Positions 15,735-23,058 of a stretch of DNA of 30,190 nucleotides are shown piece by piece. The stretch comes from a virus, in the IMG/VR virus record IMGVR_UViG_3300022939_000088, positions 1 through 30,190 of that record; one strand, given 5' to 3'. The notes under the pieces are model-generated. The model was not told where the DNA came from. It did not search any database and was given only the letters and a program-made list of their open reading frames with translations. Each line of letters opens with the position of its first letter. The first letter of the stretch is position 1. The position numbers and the translations under genes were made by a program.

Positions 15735-17261
15735 GTGAAGATTTTTGGATTTGAAATAACTAGAGCCGACGAGGAGGCTGGTGTAGAACCAGTCTCTTTT
15801 GTCGAACCTTCCAACGACGACGGTGCTATTACTGTAGGTAACGCCCTTGGCGGTTTTTATGGAACTATGCTCGATTTAGAAGGCTCTGCTAAAACAGAGT
15901 CTGAATTGGTTACTAAATATCGTAGCATGTCAATGAACCCTGAGGTTACTCAGGCAATTGATGAAATTGTTAACGAAGCAATTAGTATCAATACAGAAAA
16001 TAAAATCGTAGAAATATTATTAGACGAAACAGATTTACCAGACAAAGTCAAAGAAAAAGTTACTGAAGAATTTGAAAACGTAATAGCGTTGTTTGATTTT
16101 TCATCTCAAGCATATGATATTTTCAGTAAATTCTATATCGATGGTAGAATTAACTACCACATTATGATTGATGAAAAAGATCTCAAAAAAGGTATTACAG
16201 AATTAAGGTATGTTGATCCTCGTAAACTTAAATTGATTAGAGAAATTGATAAAAAGACTAGAGATGAACATTCTGGAATTCCTCTGAAAAAAGTTAAAAA
16301 CGAATACTATATGTATTCAGAAAACGGGTTTGGTAACAGTACACTAAACGCTGCAGGCGGTACTGGTGCTCAAGGTTACAGAATTGCTAAAGACTCCGTA
16401 GCTCGAGTTACTTCGGGATTAATGAACGAAAACAATTCTCTTGTTTTATCACATTTACATCCTGCAATTAAACCTCTCAATCAGTTAAAGATGTTAGAAG
16501 ATGCAACAGTCATTTACACTCTTACTAGAGCTCCTGAAAGAAGAGTTTTTTATATCGATGTTGGTAACCTTCCAAAGTCAAAAGCGGAACAATACCTAAG
16601 AGACATGATGACTCGCCATAAGAATAAGTTACAATATAATGCTTCTACTGGTGAAATCAGCGATGCTCGTAAAATGATGACAATGACAGAAGATTTTTGG
16701 TTCCCGCGTCGCGGCGGTGAAAGATCTACAGAAGTTGACACTTTAGCAGGCGGCGCTTCTTCAGCATTATCCACTGATGAGAATATGTCATACTTCCAAC
16801 GTAAGTTATATAAAGCACTTAAGGTTCCTATTACAAGACTAGAACCAGAAAATATGAATGCCTTTGGCCGTAGCACAGAAATTACTCGCGATGAATTAAA
16901 ATTCAGCAAATTCATTGATAGAATGAGAGCAAGGTTTTCAAATCTATTTACAATTGTATTAGAAAAGCAATTAATTCTTAAAGGTATTATGACTCCTGAA
17001 GAGTTTAAAACTATTAAAGGTGATATTCGTTACGATTTTGTTCGTGACAATTACTTTGAAGAATTAAAGGAAGCTGAAATCTTACGCGAAAGAATGCAAA
17101 CACTTCGCGACGTTGAAGATCACGTTGGTGTTTACTATTCAAGAGAATGGGTAATTAAAAATATTCTAATGCTGGGTGAAGATGAAGCAAAAGAGATGAA
17201 AGAACAAATCGCTCAAGAAGCGGCAGAGAATCCTGATCCGGGACCTGACGAAGAAACATAA
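15735..17261 (+). CDS. 20: Portal vertex protein gp20
   Basis: 508 residues (T4 gp20: 524). Starts with GTG; GAAGGG at 15721-15726 sits 8 bases before it. Conserved portal segments: YRSMSMNPEVTQAIDEIVNEAI, DGRINYHIMID, ELRYVDPRKLKLIREI, LNQLKMLEDATVIYTLTRAPERRVFYIDVGNLPK, DFWFPRR, KLYKALKVPITRLEPE. It forms the dodecameric ring through which gp17 loads DNA, and starts prohead assembly at the membrane in T4. The acidic ending (NPDPGPDEET) resembles other marine homologues. Confidence 0.97.
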   Translation: MKIFGFEITRADEEAGVEPVSFVEPSNDDGAITVGNALGGFYGTMLDLEGSAKTESELVTKYRSMSMNPEVTQAIDEIVNEAISINTENKIVEILLDETDLPDKVKEKVTEEFENVIALFDFSSQAYDIFSKFYIDGRINYHIMIDEKDLKKGITELRYVDPRKLKLIREIDKKTRDEHSGIPLKKVKNEYYMYSENGFGNSTLNAAGGTGAQGYRIAKDSVARVTSGLMNENNSLVLSHLHPAIKPLNQLKMLEDATVIYTLTRAPERRVFYIDVGNLPKSKAEQYLRDMMTRHKNKLQYNASTGEISDARKMMTMTEDFWFPRRGGERSTEVDTLAGGASSALSTDENMSYFQRKLYKALKVPITRLEPENMNAFGRSTEITRDELKFSKFIDRMRARFSNLFTIVLEKQLILKGIMTPEEFKTIKGDIRYDFVRDNYFEELKEAEILRERMQTLRDVEDHVGVYYSREWVIKNILMLGEDEAKEMKEQIAQEAAENPDPGPDEET

Positions 17262-17300: not shown

Positions 17301-19889
17301 ATGAAAACTTTTAAAAAATTGTTTTCTGAGGTTGCACAGCCAAAGGCTGGGGAAGAAAAAGCCTTTAAGGACCAGCATACCATTCAGAAATTCGATTATC
17401 CGGTTCAAGGCTCTGATGCTATATTTAAAGGCACTGTCGAAAGAAAGCCTAGATTGGCTGATCAAGACGGTGATGCAAATTACGACAAAGCATATGCTCA
17501 AACATCTGGGGACATTACTTTAACAGGTACACAACGGGAGTCAGCAGAACTAGACGAAGACGCAGAGCAAATCGACGAGATTTCAAAAGACATGGCAGGT
17601 CGTTATATTAAAAAAGCTATGCCACAATATAAGCGCGCTCAAGACAAACAACACGTTGGTCCATTTGGTTCAGCGACGCAAAAAGGCGCTGACGCAAATA
17701 AAGAACGTTTAAGAAAACGCCATAAAGGTATTGGTTCAGTTCATAAACGCTATGGCGGAAACGATCTTACTGATCGAAATCCAGCTCGCAATTCAATGAC
17801 TGGCAAAAAAGCTCCATATCAATACGAGTCAGTAGAGCTTGAAGAAGGTAGTTATGAAAGAGCAGCATATGGTAAAGGCGATGCTTATGATCGTGCTGAA
17901 GCTCACGCAGACGCCGCACGCCACCATTATGATCAAGCCGAAAAACATGAAAAAGCACGCAACTTTGATGCCGCAGATCTTCATATGGCAGCTGCAAAAG
18001 CACACGACAAAGCAGAAATGCGCATGAGTAGTATACATAGTAAACAAGAGAGAGGTAAGAATATCACGCTCTCTAGTAACCTCAGCAAAAGCAGAGATGC
18101 ACATGCCGCATCTGTAAAAGCTAACTCACATAACGAGTCAGCAGAGCAAATCGACGAGATCTCAAAAGATATGGCCCAGCGTTATTATAGTAAATCTTAT
18201 GATGCTCAGAAAAAATCCATGAATACGATGATTGATACAGAAAAAGCTCGTAAGCCTGAAAAGAAGAAAGCATACGACGATGCTCGCGAAACCCTCCGCA
18301 AACGCTTAAAAGGCTCAGACATGGCTGCTAAGCGTTTAGCCTATAAAGGTAAAAATGAAGAAGCAGAGCAAATCGACGAGATTTCAAAAGATCTAGCAGG
18401 TCGTTATATCAAAAAAGCTCAAGTTGATACAGCACACGCAGGCGATCAAATTGCTACAGGAAGCATGGGTCAAATGGGTGCATCTCCTGATGTTAAAAAA
18501 GGTTATGAAAAGCAACGCCAAAAAGGTATTGCTAAACTCGTTCGCCGTCGTATAGGAACGGCAGATGCTGTCCGTAAACTAACAGGGAAAGCTCGTGTAC
18601 CAGCAACTGAGTCATATGATGATAGTCCAGCATCTCCTGATGAAGCTTCAATGGCTAAAAAACAAGCTGAGTTCATTCAATATGTAGCAAGAGAAATCGG
18701 TATGCATATTGATAATGGAAAAGAATTTCCAGAATGGATGCAAAACAAATTGAGTGCTTTACACCAGTCAGCTAAAGATTACCATTCACATCTAGGCGCA
18801 CACGGGACAAATGAAGAAGTTGAACTCGAAGAAAAGAAACTCACAGCTAAGCAAATGAAACAAGCTTTAGCAGGGCTAAAAGTTAAAGGTAAAGAAACTG
18901 TTACCCTGAAAAAAGCACCTTGGGAAAAAGATAAAAATGAAGCTTTAGTTGGTGGACAGAAAAAGTTAGACCATAATAAAAATGGTAAAATTGATGCTCA
19001 TGATTTTAAAATGATGAGGGCTAAAAAAAAGAATGAAGAGGCAGAACTTAGAGAAGGCCACACGCGTATAGATGCAAGTGAGTATCACCATGATATGGCC
19101 GATTACCATGATGATATGCATAAACACTTAAGTAAAAAAGGTACGAAAGAAGCAAAAGCCGCAGCTGAACATCACGCAAATGCCAGGGACGCTCATCATG
19201 AAGCATCGTATGATCATGAATTTAGTAACCGCGGCAGATTTGCAGCATCTACGGTAGCCTATCGTAGATCCGAAGAAGCAAACAAAGCAAGTCGCGGCCA
19301 CACTGATAAAAAGCATATTACTCCTCGACATAGTTTTGGGGACAAAAAACAATATGATGAAAGCGTAGCGCATATTGACGAGATTTCTCAAGAAACTCTT
19401 CGCAGCTATCATGGTAAAGCTGGTGCAGATCTTAGAGCAAAAAGAGAAAAGCTTGACAAAGGTACTCTTACTACAGCAGATCTTAAAAAAGGTCAAAACC
19501 GAGTTAAAGGTTTAAACCGTGCTGCTAATAAAATGGAAGAAGTGGAGCAAGTAGACGAAACAACTCTATCTGCAACTAAAAAAATGGTAAACGTTACCGG
19601 ACCTGACGGTAAAGTACATACTGTTCAAAGACGCGTTAAAGCAAACCGTACTGATGACAAAGGACAGGATGTTATTGCCACAAGAGAATCTATTGACGAA
19701 GCTTATAAGCAAGGTTCCATTAAACTAAAAGATGGAAAAACTGTAAAGCTTTCTAATGAAGACGCAGATAAATTAAATGGGATGATGAAAGGATTAAACT
19801 CTTCTAATCGCCGCAAAATGGAACAAACAATGATGCAATCGCAAAAAGGTTTTAACGAAATCTTATCTTTTGCTAAAACAGTAAGTTAA
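17301..19889 (+). CDS. Large repeat-containing prohead core/internal protein
   Basis: 862 residues between gp20 and gp21, the place of the small core genes 67 and 68 in T4, but far larger. The MKTFKKLFSEVAQPK start and RKPRLADQDGD segment are typical of the core protein at this locus in marine T4-like phages. It contains a recurring AEQIDEISKDMAGRYIKKA-like unit: I91-D-E93, I284-D-E286, I358-D-E360, then diverged copies at I692-E694, V751-E753 and I798-E800. I/L-x-E is the cleavage rule of the T4 gp21 protease, so each unit may be a cutting site. Also present: a canonical EF-hand loop (D557, N559, N561, G562, I564, D568) and two His/Asp/Ala-rich helical segments (about residues 185-260 and 590-650). 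Very Lys/Glu rich, no membrane segment. Probable scaffold core and packaged internal peptides; not proved. Confidence 0.75.
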   Translation: MKTFKKLFSEVAQPKAGEEKAFKDQHTIQKFDYPVQGSDAIFKGTVERKPRLADQDGDANYDKAYAQTSGDITLTGTQRESAELDEDAEQIDEISKDMAGRYIKKAMPQYKRAQDKQHVGPFGSATQKGADANKERLRKRHKGIGSVHKRYGGNDLTDRNPARNSMTGKKAPYQYESVELEEGSYERAAYGKGDAYDRAEAHADAARHHYDQAEKHEKARNFDAADLHMAAAKAHDKAEMRMSSIHSKQERGKNITLSSNLSKSRDAHAASVKANSHNESAEQIDEISKDMAQRYYSKSYDAQKKSMNTMIDTEKARKPEKKKAYDDARETLRKRLKGSDMAAKRLAYKGKNEEAEQIDEISKDLAGRYIKKAQVDTAHAGDQIATGSMGQMGASPDVKKGYEKQRQKGIAKLVRRRIGTADAVRKLTGKARVPATESYDDSPASPDEASMAKKQAEFIQYVAREIGMHIDNGKEFPEWMQNKLSALHQSAKDYHSHLGAHGTNEEVELEEKKLTAKQMKQALAGLKVKGKETVTLKKAPWEKDKNEALVGGQKKLDHNKNGKIDAHDFKMMRAKKKNEEAELREGHTRIDASEYHHDMADYHDDMHKHLSKKGTKEAKAAAEHHANARDAHHEASYDHEFSNRGRFAASTVAYRRSEEANKASRGHTDKKHITPRHSFGDKKQYDESVAHIDEISQETLRSYHGKAGADLRAKREKLDKGTLTTADLKKGQNRVKGLNRAANKMEEVEQVDETTLSATKKMVNVTGPDGKVHTVQRRVKANRTDDKGQDVIATRESIDEAYKQGSIKLKDGKTVKLSNEDADKLNGMMKGLNSSNRRKMEQTMMQSQKGFNEILSFAKTVS
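17562..17618 (+). repeat. Core-protein IDE repeat, copy 1
   Basis: 57 bases coding AEQIDEISKDMAGRYIKKA (residues 88-106). It differs from the copy at 18363-18419 by only a few bases, which suggests recent duplication or ongoing gene conversion. Confidence 0.85.
18141..18197 (+). repeat. Core-protein IDE repeat, copy 2
   Basis: Codes AEQIDEISKDMAQRYYSKS (from residue 281). The first 12 residues are identical to copy 1; the end has diverged. Confidence 0.8.
18363..18419 (+). repeat. Core-protein IDE repeat, copy 3
   Basis: Codes AEQIDEISKDLAGRYIKKA (from residue 355), one residue different from copy 1. Confidence 0.85.
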
Positions 19890-19938
19890 CAGCTATTTGG
19901 GGTGAACTTTCTAAGAACTATTACGATGGCTTATAAAT

Positions 19939-19968: not shown

Positions 19969-20667
19969 ATGAAATTAATTACAGAAGTTGTGGAAGAATG
20001 CTCAGTATCCTCTGTTCTTGACGAGGCCACTGGTAAAAAATCTCACTTCATCGAAGGTATTTTCATGCAAGGGGATTTAAAGAACCGCAATGGGCGTTGG
20101 TATCCTAGTCAGGTTCTTGAAAAAGAGATGGTTCGCTATCAAAAAGATTTCATCGACACAAAACGTGCACTCGGTGAATTGGGTCACCCAGATGGCCCAA
20201 CAATTAATGGCGACCGTGTTTCTCATCTCATTACTGAGATGAAAAGAGATGGTTCTAACTTTATTGGTAAAGCTAAAATCCTTAGCACTCCAATGGGTGA
20301 GATTGTTAAAACATTTATGGATGAAGGCGTAAGGATTGGCGTTTCTACACGTGGCCTTGGTTCTGTAAAACCAACTAAAGACGGCATTATGGAAGTACAA
20401 GACGATTTCCATCTTGCAACTGTTGATATTGTAACTGACCCATCTGGGCCTAATTGCTTTGTCAATGGTATCATGGAGAATATTGAATATTACTATGATA
20501 TTGCTTCTAACTCTTGGTTACCAAAAGCGCAACAACAAGAAGTTGCAGAGGTTGTCGAAGAGATTCAAAAAGAAGTTAAAAGACATTATAAGCGCACAAT
20601 CCATACAATCGATGAGGCATTGGCTTCAAGAATGTTTGAACGTTTTATAAATACGCTGAGAAAATAA
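19969..20667 (+). CDS. 21: Prohead core maturation protease gp21
   Basis: 232 residues (T4 gp21: 212). Serine protease of the phage prohead type: the conserved GELGHPDG holds catalytic His73 and GVSTRGLGS holds nucleophile Ser126, with DFHLATVDIVTDPSGPN after it. LKNRNGRWYPSQVLEKE near residue 40 is also a family signature. In T4 it is built into the prohead, activates itself, cuts the scaffold and core and trims gp23. A TIDE motif (I214-E216) near its own C-terminus fits the I/L-x-E self-cleavage rule. Its neighbours are its substrates: the core protein, gp22 and gp23. Confidence 0.97.
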   Translation: MKLITEVVEECSVSSVLDEATGKKSHFIEGIFMQGDLKNRNGRWYPSQVLEKEMVRYQKDFIDTKRALGELGHPDGPTINGDRVSHLITEMKRDGSNFIGKAKILSTPMGEIVKTFMDEGVRIGVSTRGLGSVKPTKDGIMEVQDDFHLATVDIVTDPSGPNCFVNGIMENIEYYYDIASNSWLPKAQQQEVAEVVEEIQKEVKRHYKRTIHTIDEALASRMFERFINTLRK

Positions 20668-20717: not shown

Positions 20718-21692
20718 ATGTCAGATAATACAGACACATTGGAAGAATTCAAAGCTTCCTTTGGCGATCCATCGACTGCTGCGGAACCTGTAACACCGGA
20801 AGGTGGTGCAGCAAAGCACGGTAAAGACAAAAAGAAACCTGGCGAAAAAGCCGATAAGGTTGACACAGCAACACCTGGTCAAGGTGCTGTTAAAGCAGAA
20901 GAAGTAGAAGCTGAAGAAGCAGATGAAATCATCGAGGAAGAAGTAGTTTCTATCGACGAATCTGTTGCAGCTATGTTTGAAGGCATGGACCTTTCAGAAG
21001 AATTCAAAAATAAAGTTACTGTTGTTTTTGAAGCGGCTGTTAATGAAGCAGCTACAGCAAAAGCAACTGCTATTGTTGAAGAAAAAACTGCTGAACTAGA
21101 AGCATCAATGAATGAGTCAATCGACGCATCTATTGAAACAATGGTTGAAAATCTTGACTCATATCTCGACTACGTAGTAGAAGAGTGGATGAAAGAAAAC
21201 GAACTAGCAGTTGAATCTGGTATCAAAGTTGAAATGGCAGAGTCATTAATGGATGGCCTTCGTAATCTATTCGAAGAGCACAACATTGAAGTTGATGACG
21301 AAGTTGTAGACGTTGTTGCTGGTTTGGAAGAGCAAGTTAACGAACTCAAAGAAGAAGCAAATAAGCAAATCGATGAGAACCTAGCTCTTGCAAAGGAAAT
21401 CGCAGCGTTTAAAGCGGCGAAAGTTTTTGATGAACTAGCAGAAGATCTCACAATGACACAACGTGAGCGTCTAAAAGTTCTTTCTGAAAAGCTTGACTTC
21501 GGCGATGTCGAAGAATATACTTCAAACCTTAACATTCTAAAAGAATCATTCTTCGCTGACGAAAAGCCAATCGTTGAAGAAAACGATGCTGAAGAAGAAG
21601 AGATCATCACAGAAGAAACAGAGGTTAAAAAACCAGCTTCTGACTATTCTTCAATCAATGCTCTCGTTGAGGCTCTTAACGCAAGAAAATAA
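20718..21692 (+). CDS. 22: Prohead scaffolding core protein gp22
   Basis: 324 residues (T4 gp22: 269). Extremely acidic and mostly alpha-helical/coiled coil, as in the gp22 family. The VVSIDESVAAMFEGMDLSEEFKNK segment (I79-E81 is an I-x-E cleavage motif) and the C-terminal SSINALVEALNARK ending are characteristic. The first 60 residues are low-complexity and charged. It forms the inner scaffold around which gp23 assembles and is degraded by gp21 before DNA packaging. Strong ribosome site AAAGGAG (20703-20709). Confidence 0.93.
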   Translation: MSDNTDTLEEFKASFGDPSTAAEPVTPEGGAAKHGKDKKKPGEKADKVDTATPGQGAVKAEEVEAEEADEIIEEEVVSIDESVAAMFEGMDLSEEFKNKVTVVFEAAVNEAATAKATAIVEEKTAELEASMNESIDASIETMVENLDSYLDYVVEEWMKENELAVESGIKVEMAESLMDGLRNLFEEHNIEVDDEVVDVVAGLEEQVNELKEEANKQIDENLALAKEIAAFKAAKVFDELAEDLTMTQRERLKVLSEKLDFGDVEEYTSNLNILKESFFADEKPIVEENDAEEEEIITEETEVKKPASDYSSINALVEALNARK

Positions 21693-21750: not shown

Positions 21751-23058
21751 ATGTCAAACTATCAAAATCTTGTCGAAAAGTGGGGCCCAATCCTTGAGCA
21801 CGAATCTTTTTCGACAATCGCGGACCAACATAAGAAAGCTGTAACAGCTACTATCTTGGAAAACACAGAAAAAGCGTTATTGGAATCTGGCGATCGTCAG
21901 CTTGCAATGAGCTCACTTCTTATGGAATCACCAGCTAACGATGCAAGTACTGGTGGTTTCGGTGCAGGTTCAACAGCAGCTGGTCCAACAGCTGGTTATG
22001 ACCCAATCCTTATTTCATTAGTACGTCGCGCAATGCCAAACCTAATGGCATACGACATTGCTGGTGTTCAGCCAATGACAGGCCCAACAGGCTTGATCTT
22101 CGCAATGCGTTCACGCAAAACTTCACAAGCTGGTGCTGAAGTCTTCTACAACGAAGCAGACACAACACTTGCTGGTACAGGTGCACAAACTGGTTCAACT
22201 GGTGGTGTTTCTAATACAACACTATTCACAACTGGTACAGGTATGGACACAGGTACTGCTGAAGATCTTGGCGACGGCACAACAATGGCAGAAATGGCAT
22301 TCTCAATCGAGAAAGTTGCTGTAACTGCAAAATCAAGAGCGCTAAAAGCTGAGTACACAACTGAATTGGCACAAGACCTTAAAGCAGTTCACGGTCTTGA
22401 CGCTGAAACAGAGCTTGCAAACATTCTTCAATCAGAAATCTTGGTTGAAATCAACCGCGAGCTTGTTCGTACAATTTATCAAACAGCTAAACAAGGCGCA
22501 ACTGGCACATCATCAGCTGGTATCTTTGACTTAGACGTCGACGCAAACGGTCGCTGGTCAGTAGAAAAATTCAAAGGCCTAATGTTCCAAGTTGAGCAAG
22601 AAGCAAACGCAATTGCAAAAGGTACACGTCGCGGTAAAGGTAACATCGTTATCTGTTCTTCAGACGTTGCTTCAGCGTTGCAGATGGCGGGTGTACTTGA
22701 TTACGCTCCAGCACTTAACTCTAACAGCCTTTCAGTTGACGACACAGGCAACACATTCGCTGGTGTTCTTAACGGCCGTTATAAAGTATATGTTGACCCA
22801 TATGCAGGCAGCAACTACATGGTTGTTGGCTACAAAGGTTCTTCAGCGTTTGACGCAGGTCTCTTCTACTGCCCATACGTTCCATTACAAATGGTTCGCG
22901 CAGTTGGTGAGAACAGCTTCCAGCCAAAAATCGGGTTCAAAACTCGCTACGGCATGGTTGCAAACCCATTCGCAGAAGGCACAACACAAGGTCTTGGCGC
23001 ACTTACACGCGACGCAAACGAATACTATCGCAGAGTACGCGTATCTAACCTATTCTAA
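21751..23058 (+). CDS. 23: Major capsid protein gp23
   Basis: 435 residues, shorter than T4 gp23 (521) as in other marine relatives. LVEKWGPILEHE and the helical prodomain are followed by LLMES, where cleavage after E59 fits the gp21 rule and leaves a mature chain of about 376 residues starting SPAND. Conserved HK97-fold blocks: PILISLVRRAMPNLMAYDI, GVQPMTGPTGLIFAMRSR, EKVAVTAKSRALKAEYTTELAQDLKAVHGLDAE, KGNIVICSSDVASAL, YCPYVPLQMVRAVGENSFQPKIGFKTRYGM. Codon use is noticeably richer in C-ending codons than neighbouring genes, as expected for the most highly expressed protein. AAGGAGAT gives a strong ribosome site. Confidence 0.98.
   Translation: MSNYQNLVEKWGPILEHESFSTIADQHKKAVTATILENTEKALLESGDRQLAMSSLLMESPANDASTGGFGAGSTAAGPTAGYDPILISLVRRAMPNLMAYDIAGVQPMTGPTGLIFAMRSRKTSQAGAEVFYNEADTTLAGTGAQTGSTGGVSNTTLFTTGTGMDTGTAEDLGDGTTMAEMAFSIEKVAVTAKSRALKAEYTTELAQDLKAVHGLDAETELANILQSEILVEINRELVRTIYQTAKQGATGTSSAGIFDLDVDANGRWSVEKFKGLMFQVEQEANAIAKGTRRGKGNIVICSSDVASALQMAGVLDYAPALNSNSLSVDDTGNTFAGVLNGRYKVYVDPYAGSNYMVVGYKGSSAFDAGLFYCPYVPLQMVRAVGENSFQPKIGFKTRYGMVANPFAEGTTQGLGALTRDANEYYRRVRVSNLF

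Follow-up and report, generated by a model that had tools for sequence, protein, structure and literature searches.

Each internal head protein of T4 is known as the product of its own gene, and only a minority of them have an established role. The question raised by the present locus is what is made from the slot between the portal and the prohead protease in a marine T4-like myovirus, where a single stop-free ORF encodes a protein of 862 aa (97 kDa at full length). The window, i.e., the whole stretch of 30,190 nucleotides that was analysed (IMG/VR record IMGVR_UViG_3300022939_000088), has the gene order gp17-18-19-20-ORF-21-22-23, with gp17, gp18 and gp19 annotated as terminase, sheath and tube, respectively. 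To judge from its sequence and that of its relatives, the ORF probably encodes a capsid-targeted prohead-core polyprotein composed of shuffled cassettes and cut by gp21; a single gene may in this way supply many small internal head proteins.

The locus and its cassette protein

The genes of the relevant part of the window are as follows:

15735..17261, + strand, gp20 portal protein
17301..19889, + strand, 862-aa cassette polyprotein (putative), prohead core gene in the gp20-gp21 slot
19969..20667, + strand, gp21 prohead protease (Peptidase_S77), with tail IDE codons 214-216 that are kept in relatives
20718..21692, + strand, gp22 scaffold
21751..23058, + strand, gp23 major capsid protein, with the propeptide-type site LLME59

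The protease matches Peptidase_S77 with E=3.6e-34. Among annotated gp23 proteins, those of Methylophilales, Sinorhizobium, Stenotrophomonas, cyanobacterial and Pelagibacter phages come nearest, with identities of about 61-66%. Upstream of the 862-aa ORF there is a plausible ribosome-binding site, TAATAGGAGAAAAGTTATG. When the 862-aa protein (P0001) was searched against 50,697 phage records at the DNA and the protein level, nothing matched, and its relatives were therefore drawn from IMG/VR. Searches of viral contigs returned 70 loci for the core ORF and 80 for gp21, and the comparison set, analysed by profile searches, comprised 41 non-redundant proteins of 135-862 aa encoded between gp20 and gp21. 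Residues 1-579 of the window protein recur at 100% identity in two contigs (L006 and L007).

Comparison of these proteins resolves the window protein into the architecture NTD-YIK-HHA-YIK-YIK-PEW-APW-EFh-HHB-YHG-TTS-CTD, i.e., a series of cassettes between conserved N-terminal (NTD) and C-terminal (CTD) domains:

17301..17495, + strand, conserved NTD, residues 1-65 (weak phrog_26626 match, E=0.0048)
17565..17738, + strand, YIK cassette 1, residues 89-146
17847..18140, + strand, HHA, a His/Ala-rich cassette, residues 183-280, in the analysed set found only here
18144..18326, + strand, YIK cassette 2, residues 282-342, containing IDE286
18366..18536, + strand, YIK cassette 3, residues 356-412, containing IDE360
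18639..18791, + strand, PEW cassette, residues 447-497, a predicted two-helix hairpin
18849..18932, + strand, APW cassette, residues 517-544
18939..19034, + strand, EF-hand-loop-like cassette DHNKNGKIDAHD, residues 547-578 (Pfam matches below cut-off)
19050..19370, + strand, HHB, a His-rich cassette, residues 584-690, in the analysed set found only here
19371..19535, + strand, YHG cassette, residues 691-745, containing IDE694
19551..19688, + strand, TTS cassette, residues 751-796, containing VDE753
19692..19877, + strand, CTD, residues 798-859, containing IDE800

Searches of the whole protein against Pfam, PHROGs and NCBIfam returned weak matches only, of which the EF-hand loop is the sole sensible one. 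No Pfam or NCBIfam domain scored above cut-off, and nothing recognisable as an enzymatic or defence domain turned up. The CTD is predicted to form a β-hairpin followed by three helices (pLDDT 90.7), and PDB fold searches with this domain and with the PEW cassette gave no meaningful match. Profile matches of the CTD to coronavirus spike chains span 18-19 residues and were taken as chance.

The two end domains are fixed across the relatives, with the NTD placed first in 39 of the 41 and the CTD last in 37. In between, cassettes of at least 14 types have been gained, lost, duplicated and reordered, despite the adjacent gp20, gp21 and gp23 being mostly 70-87% identical. For example, two relatives whose gp21 is 84% and 86% identical to that of the window carry the arrangements NTD-YIK-APW-TTS-CTD (L078) and NTD-YIK-TTS-APW-CTD (L080), while the smallest member of the family, a 135-aa protein of phiM12, consists of the two end domains only.

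Two further features of the interval may be noted. Downstream of the core ORF, positions 19892-19936 of the window retain AIWGELSKNYYDGL-stop, which matches the final part of a gene of 74-95 aa (MAWVxVPGSN...GELSKNYYDARI) present there in many relatives, and which looks like the remnant of a lost small gene. In another locus, the core gene region is followed, ahead of gp21, by a 274-aa ORF (L146:5193-6017) whose sequence reads like that of a putative homing endonuclease.

Targeting-like N-termini and stand-alone cassette genes

In T4, a capsid-targeting sequence (CTS) of 10 residues at the start of IPIII is enough for packaging, with positions 4 and 7 important for targeting and positions 8 and 10 for processing (PMC9026906). 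The window protein begins with a comparable segment:

17301..17330, + strand, capsid-targeting-like N-terminus MKTFKKLFSE, with F4, L7, F8 and E10

These four residues are in register with Y4, F7, I8 and E10 of T4 IPIII, the T4 proteins starting MKTYQEFIAE (IPII and IPIII) and MKTFKEF (IPI). The register at positions 4, 7 and 10 fits in 37 of 39 relatives. Further, where the core is split into two genes (L108:4372-5725 and L123:885-3562), each half has a CTS-like start, the second halves beginning MKSFKDIYED or MKTFKNLFVKE. Single cassettes also occur as stand-alone genes behind CTS-like starts, namely a PEW cassette in an 82-aa gene in two loci (L017 and L025) and a GSI cassette in a 64-aa gene from the same genome as the split core of L108.

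The association of such starts with the virion could be assessed in cyanophage S-CREM2, the virion proteins of which have been detected by mass spectrometry (PMC10665884). A strict CTS motif was found in 3 of 50 virion-detected ORFs as against none of 167 undetected ones (P=0.012), which, as part of the motif was framed after two of the three matches had been seen, constitutes support and not proof; a looser targeting regular expression gave 4/50 versus 5/167, which is not significant (P=0.13). As regards individual S-CREM2 proteins (L195; gp6, gp12 and gp13), a virion-detected SAM hydrolase starts MKDFDSFLEE, gp13 starts MKDLHSFLTE, and a virion-detected protein annotated as Cas9 has LRFASFMAEAA near residue 17. 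It is possible that these are targeting sequences on anti-host proteins. Additionally, related phages (L018, L024, L027, L032, L033 and L038) have a second operon with several genes starting MxxFxxYxxE, whose products include a DUF6267 protein, nucleotidyltransferase-like proteins and cassette proteins, and which perhaps encodes a set of internal head proteins.

Junction motifs and predicted processing

T4 gp21 reportedly cuts after L/I-x-E and is itself processed at its C-terminus (PMC9026906). Six I/V-D-E motifs had been reported in the 862-aa protein by an earlier note on this DNA, and they end exactly as claimed at E93, E286, E360, E694, E753 and E800, as against 0.39 expected from composition, a count of six being reached in none of 5000 shuffles. 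The motifs that the same note had placed in gp21 (I214-E216), gp22 and gp23 (LLME59) are all present as well. Including four sites beyond its list (LDE86, LEE182, LEE511 and LRE585), the candidates not named above with a cassette or the CTD are:

17550..17558, + strand, LDE86 candidate gp21 site
17571..17579, + strand, IDE93 candidate gp21 site
17838..17846, + strand, LEE182 candidate gp21 site
18825..18833, + strand, LEE511 candidate gp21 site
19047..19055, + strand, LRE585 candidate gp21 site

The bare T4 motif [IL]-x-E occurs 9 times against 5.6 expected (P=0.10), without clear excess, and hence counts alone do not prove a protease substrate and the case rests on the positions of the motifs. 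Some candidates carry V at P3 (VDE753, one of the original six), and the site in the protein's own CTS is FSE and not L/I-x-E.

Across the relatives, [ILVM][DNE]E is 3.7-fold enriched in linkers, where it occurs 164 times and local composition predicts 44.7. Cassette interiors have 4 occurrences as against 16.0 expected, a 4-fold depletion. Of the control patterns, [ILV].D, [ILV].Q and [AGST].E showed no linker enrichment, and E.[ILV] was enriched. Within 8 aa of the cassette start, [ILVM].E is found at 129 of 162 starts as compared with 28% of random positions. Since the cassette seeds had been drawn by the analyst, the test was repeated using nothing but the endpoints of blastp homology; 43% of homology starts then lay near the motif against 23% at random, a value above all 500 permutations, with the controls flat or lower. 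Both the linker enrichment and this breakpoint test thus place L/I-x-E sites at exposed junctions, as expected for substrates of gp21 (S77). The EF-hand and APW cassettes are usually without a site at their start.

The near-identical 19-residue repeat unit, of which at least three copies had been claimed, is borne out as EQIDEISKD(M/L)AxRY in three copies (63 nt compared, DNA identity of 100, 76 and 92%), and a further copy reaches 63% at the DNA level. This repeat is real and confined to one cassette type, the general feature being the junction motif ahead of many unrelated cassettes. The earlier note had also named homologues that keep the repeat and lose its glutamate as evidence against cleavage; such a pattern was not seen in the homologues, the E at the junction being kept in 18/18 YIK, 18/18 TTS and 12/15 YHG cassettes and in 34/37 CTDs. 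Further, nearly all the relatives listed also have I/V-D-E in the tail of gp21, and most keep the L-L-x-E propeptide site of gp23.

From these positions and the targeting register, we infer the following course. The first ten residues would act as a T4-type CTS, bringing into the prohead core a chain of small, autonomous cassettes strung between the fixed N- and C-terminal domains. During head maturation gp21 would cut after hydrophobic-x-Glu in the acidic linkers, and cuts at E10, 86, 93, 182, 286, 360, 511, 585, 694, 753 and 800 would yield 12 pieces of 0.8-17 kDa, several of them basic (pI 9.4-10.0). The earlier proposal of a polyprotein is supported by the locus, the T4-type N-terminus and the cassettes with gp21-type sites at their junctions; its figure of five to seven peptides is too low, up to about 12 being predicted. 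Some pieces would stay with the DNA and probably be ejected like the T4 internal proteins, and the rest would leave the head or be degraded.

The most serious alternative, which we regard as rather unlikely, is an expanded scaffold, i.e., a repetitive gp22-like core protein cut by gp21 mainly for clearance, the pieces having no later role. In T4, cutting of the core proteins gp22, gp67 and gp68 does indeed give fragments most of which exit the head (PMC9026906; PMC5694885), and each site is the end of an acidic stretch of 12 residues (net -0.225 per residue), as would suit a scaffold. However, the cassettes are on average net positive, the linkers being net negative. The fast turnover of cassettes beside conserved head genes, and the presence of the same cassettes as CTS-tagged genes at other loci, give them the look of cargo rather than of scaffold.

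The composition of the sites bears on a second, distinctly unlikely alternative, in which the I/V-D-E linker stays uncut and serves for docking, either to the core or to gp21 itself. The linkers mostly have D/N at P2 and the gp21 tail has D there, but the gp23 propeptide site has M/S/T; cutting thus does not require D, which might instead have to do with binding. Against this, no position varies less than E, P3 is hydrophobic in almost every case and A is the commonest residue following E, resembling the Glu-Ala cut site reported for T4 gp22 (PMC9026906), and the gp21 gene adjoins the core gene. Finally, that I-D-E-I-S merely caps the first turn of a helix (capping box) in a helical domain that is repeated, and is kept for folding, is highly improbable, as the motif, although it stands in YIK cassettes directly ahead of helical-looking SKDxAxRYIKKA (read by eye), also precedes the unrelated TTS, β-hairpin CTD, MYK, RRK and GSI with nothing common after it, and is depleted inside cassettes.

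Under the preferred reading of a gp21-cut polyprotein, the junctions might have a further consequence. The junction DNA is itself repeated, a 26-nt unit occurring at six places with 73-96% identity to the reference, and could permit recombination between cassettes, such that near-identical linker DNA at each junction would allow cassettes to be swapped. More tentatively, the protein could constitute an exchangeable arsenal, in which one CTS brings in a gp21-cut chain whose pieces are ejected into the host, with recombination at the linkers reshuffling the set faster than the head evolves. Reshuffling faster than the rest of the head is what would be expected of anti-host or anti-defence factors, although we consider this larger picture possible rather than likely.

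Relation to known head proteins

A link to T4 genes 67 and 68 had previously been suggested. It holds with respect to position beside the protease: like T4 gp67 and gp68 (and gp22), the 862-aa protein combines the gp20-gp21 slot, a predicted core location and several L/I-x-E sites. It differs in its cassette architecture and in its size (up to 862 aa versus 80 and 141 aa). Homology did not follow. An hhalign comparison of the CTD with T4 gp68 gave a probability of 0.2%, i.e., no homology, and a gp67 HMM that found gp67 in T4-like controls had no significant match in either the window or the relatives; hence the protein should not be filed as either. A gp67-like gene is present in T4, phiM12, DLP6, Melnitz, HTVC008M and cyanophages and is missing from the gp20-gp21 interval of the window's clade; none was found in a 170-kb contig (G002).

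On the basis of the shared NTD and CTD at gp20-gp21, the 862-aa protein is instead assigned to the phiM12-type family at the gene-68 position (phrog_26626). The Sinorhizobium phage phiM12 protein AB690_gp058 (135 aa, hypothetical) has homologous NTD and CTD (E=4.5e-6 for the CTD) in the same slot, but is cassette-free and preceded by a separate gp67-like gene. The N-terminal CTS register is shared with the CTS-tagged, cleaved and ejected IPI, IPII and IPIII of T4, which are encoded by one gene per protein, whereas the window protein joins many cassettes behind one CTS in a single chain. It would work like a T4 core protein and the T4 internal protein set joined in one chain.

The closest concept in published work is that of the polyvalent proteins of phages and conjugative elements, multi-domain proteins delivered with the DNA and likened by their authors to viral polyproteins (PMC5512222). 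These have an embedded metallopeptidase and known enzyme domains; the window protein has neither, its cutter would be gp21 in trans, and with no Pfam or NCBIfam domain above cut-off it was not placed among them. The literature covered, which is incomplete, yielded no account of a cassette polyprotein at the gp20-gp21 position.

If the proposal is correct, it would represent a new way of loading the head with many proteins by means of one targeting signal and one protease, and the sequence rule of a CTS motif at the start and hydrophobic-x-Glu at the junctions could predict internal proteins across T4-like phages. Similar proteins, all annotated as hypothetical, are carried by isolated phages, such that both the idea and the purpose of internal proteins can be tested in cultured relatives:

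L190:2909-4957, Cr30 (Caulobacter phage) gp064, IDE-delimited cassette chain, 682 aa
L191:2480-4528, S-SKS1 SWZG_00082, IDE-delimited cassette chain, 682 aa
L192:1847-4867, P-TIM68 gp159, IDE-delimited cassette chain, 1006 aa

These chains resemble the window protein in their YIK-type cassette and in their E-x(I/L)(D/N)E junctions. They are encoded at a different locus, which in Cr30 and P-TIM68 lies near a cytidylyltransferase gene, and neither the NTD nor the CTD of the window's family was seen in them. The cytidylyltransferase class bears a CTS-like start in S-CREM2 and P-TIM68, and S-SM1 virions contain a cytidylyltransferase (PMC3037559).
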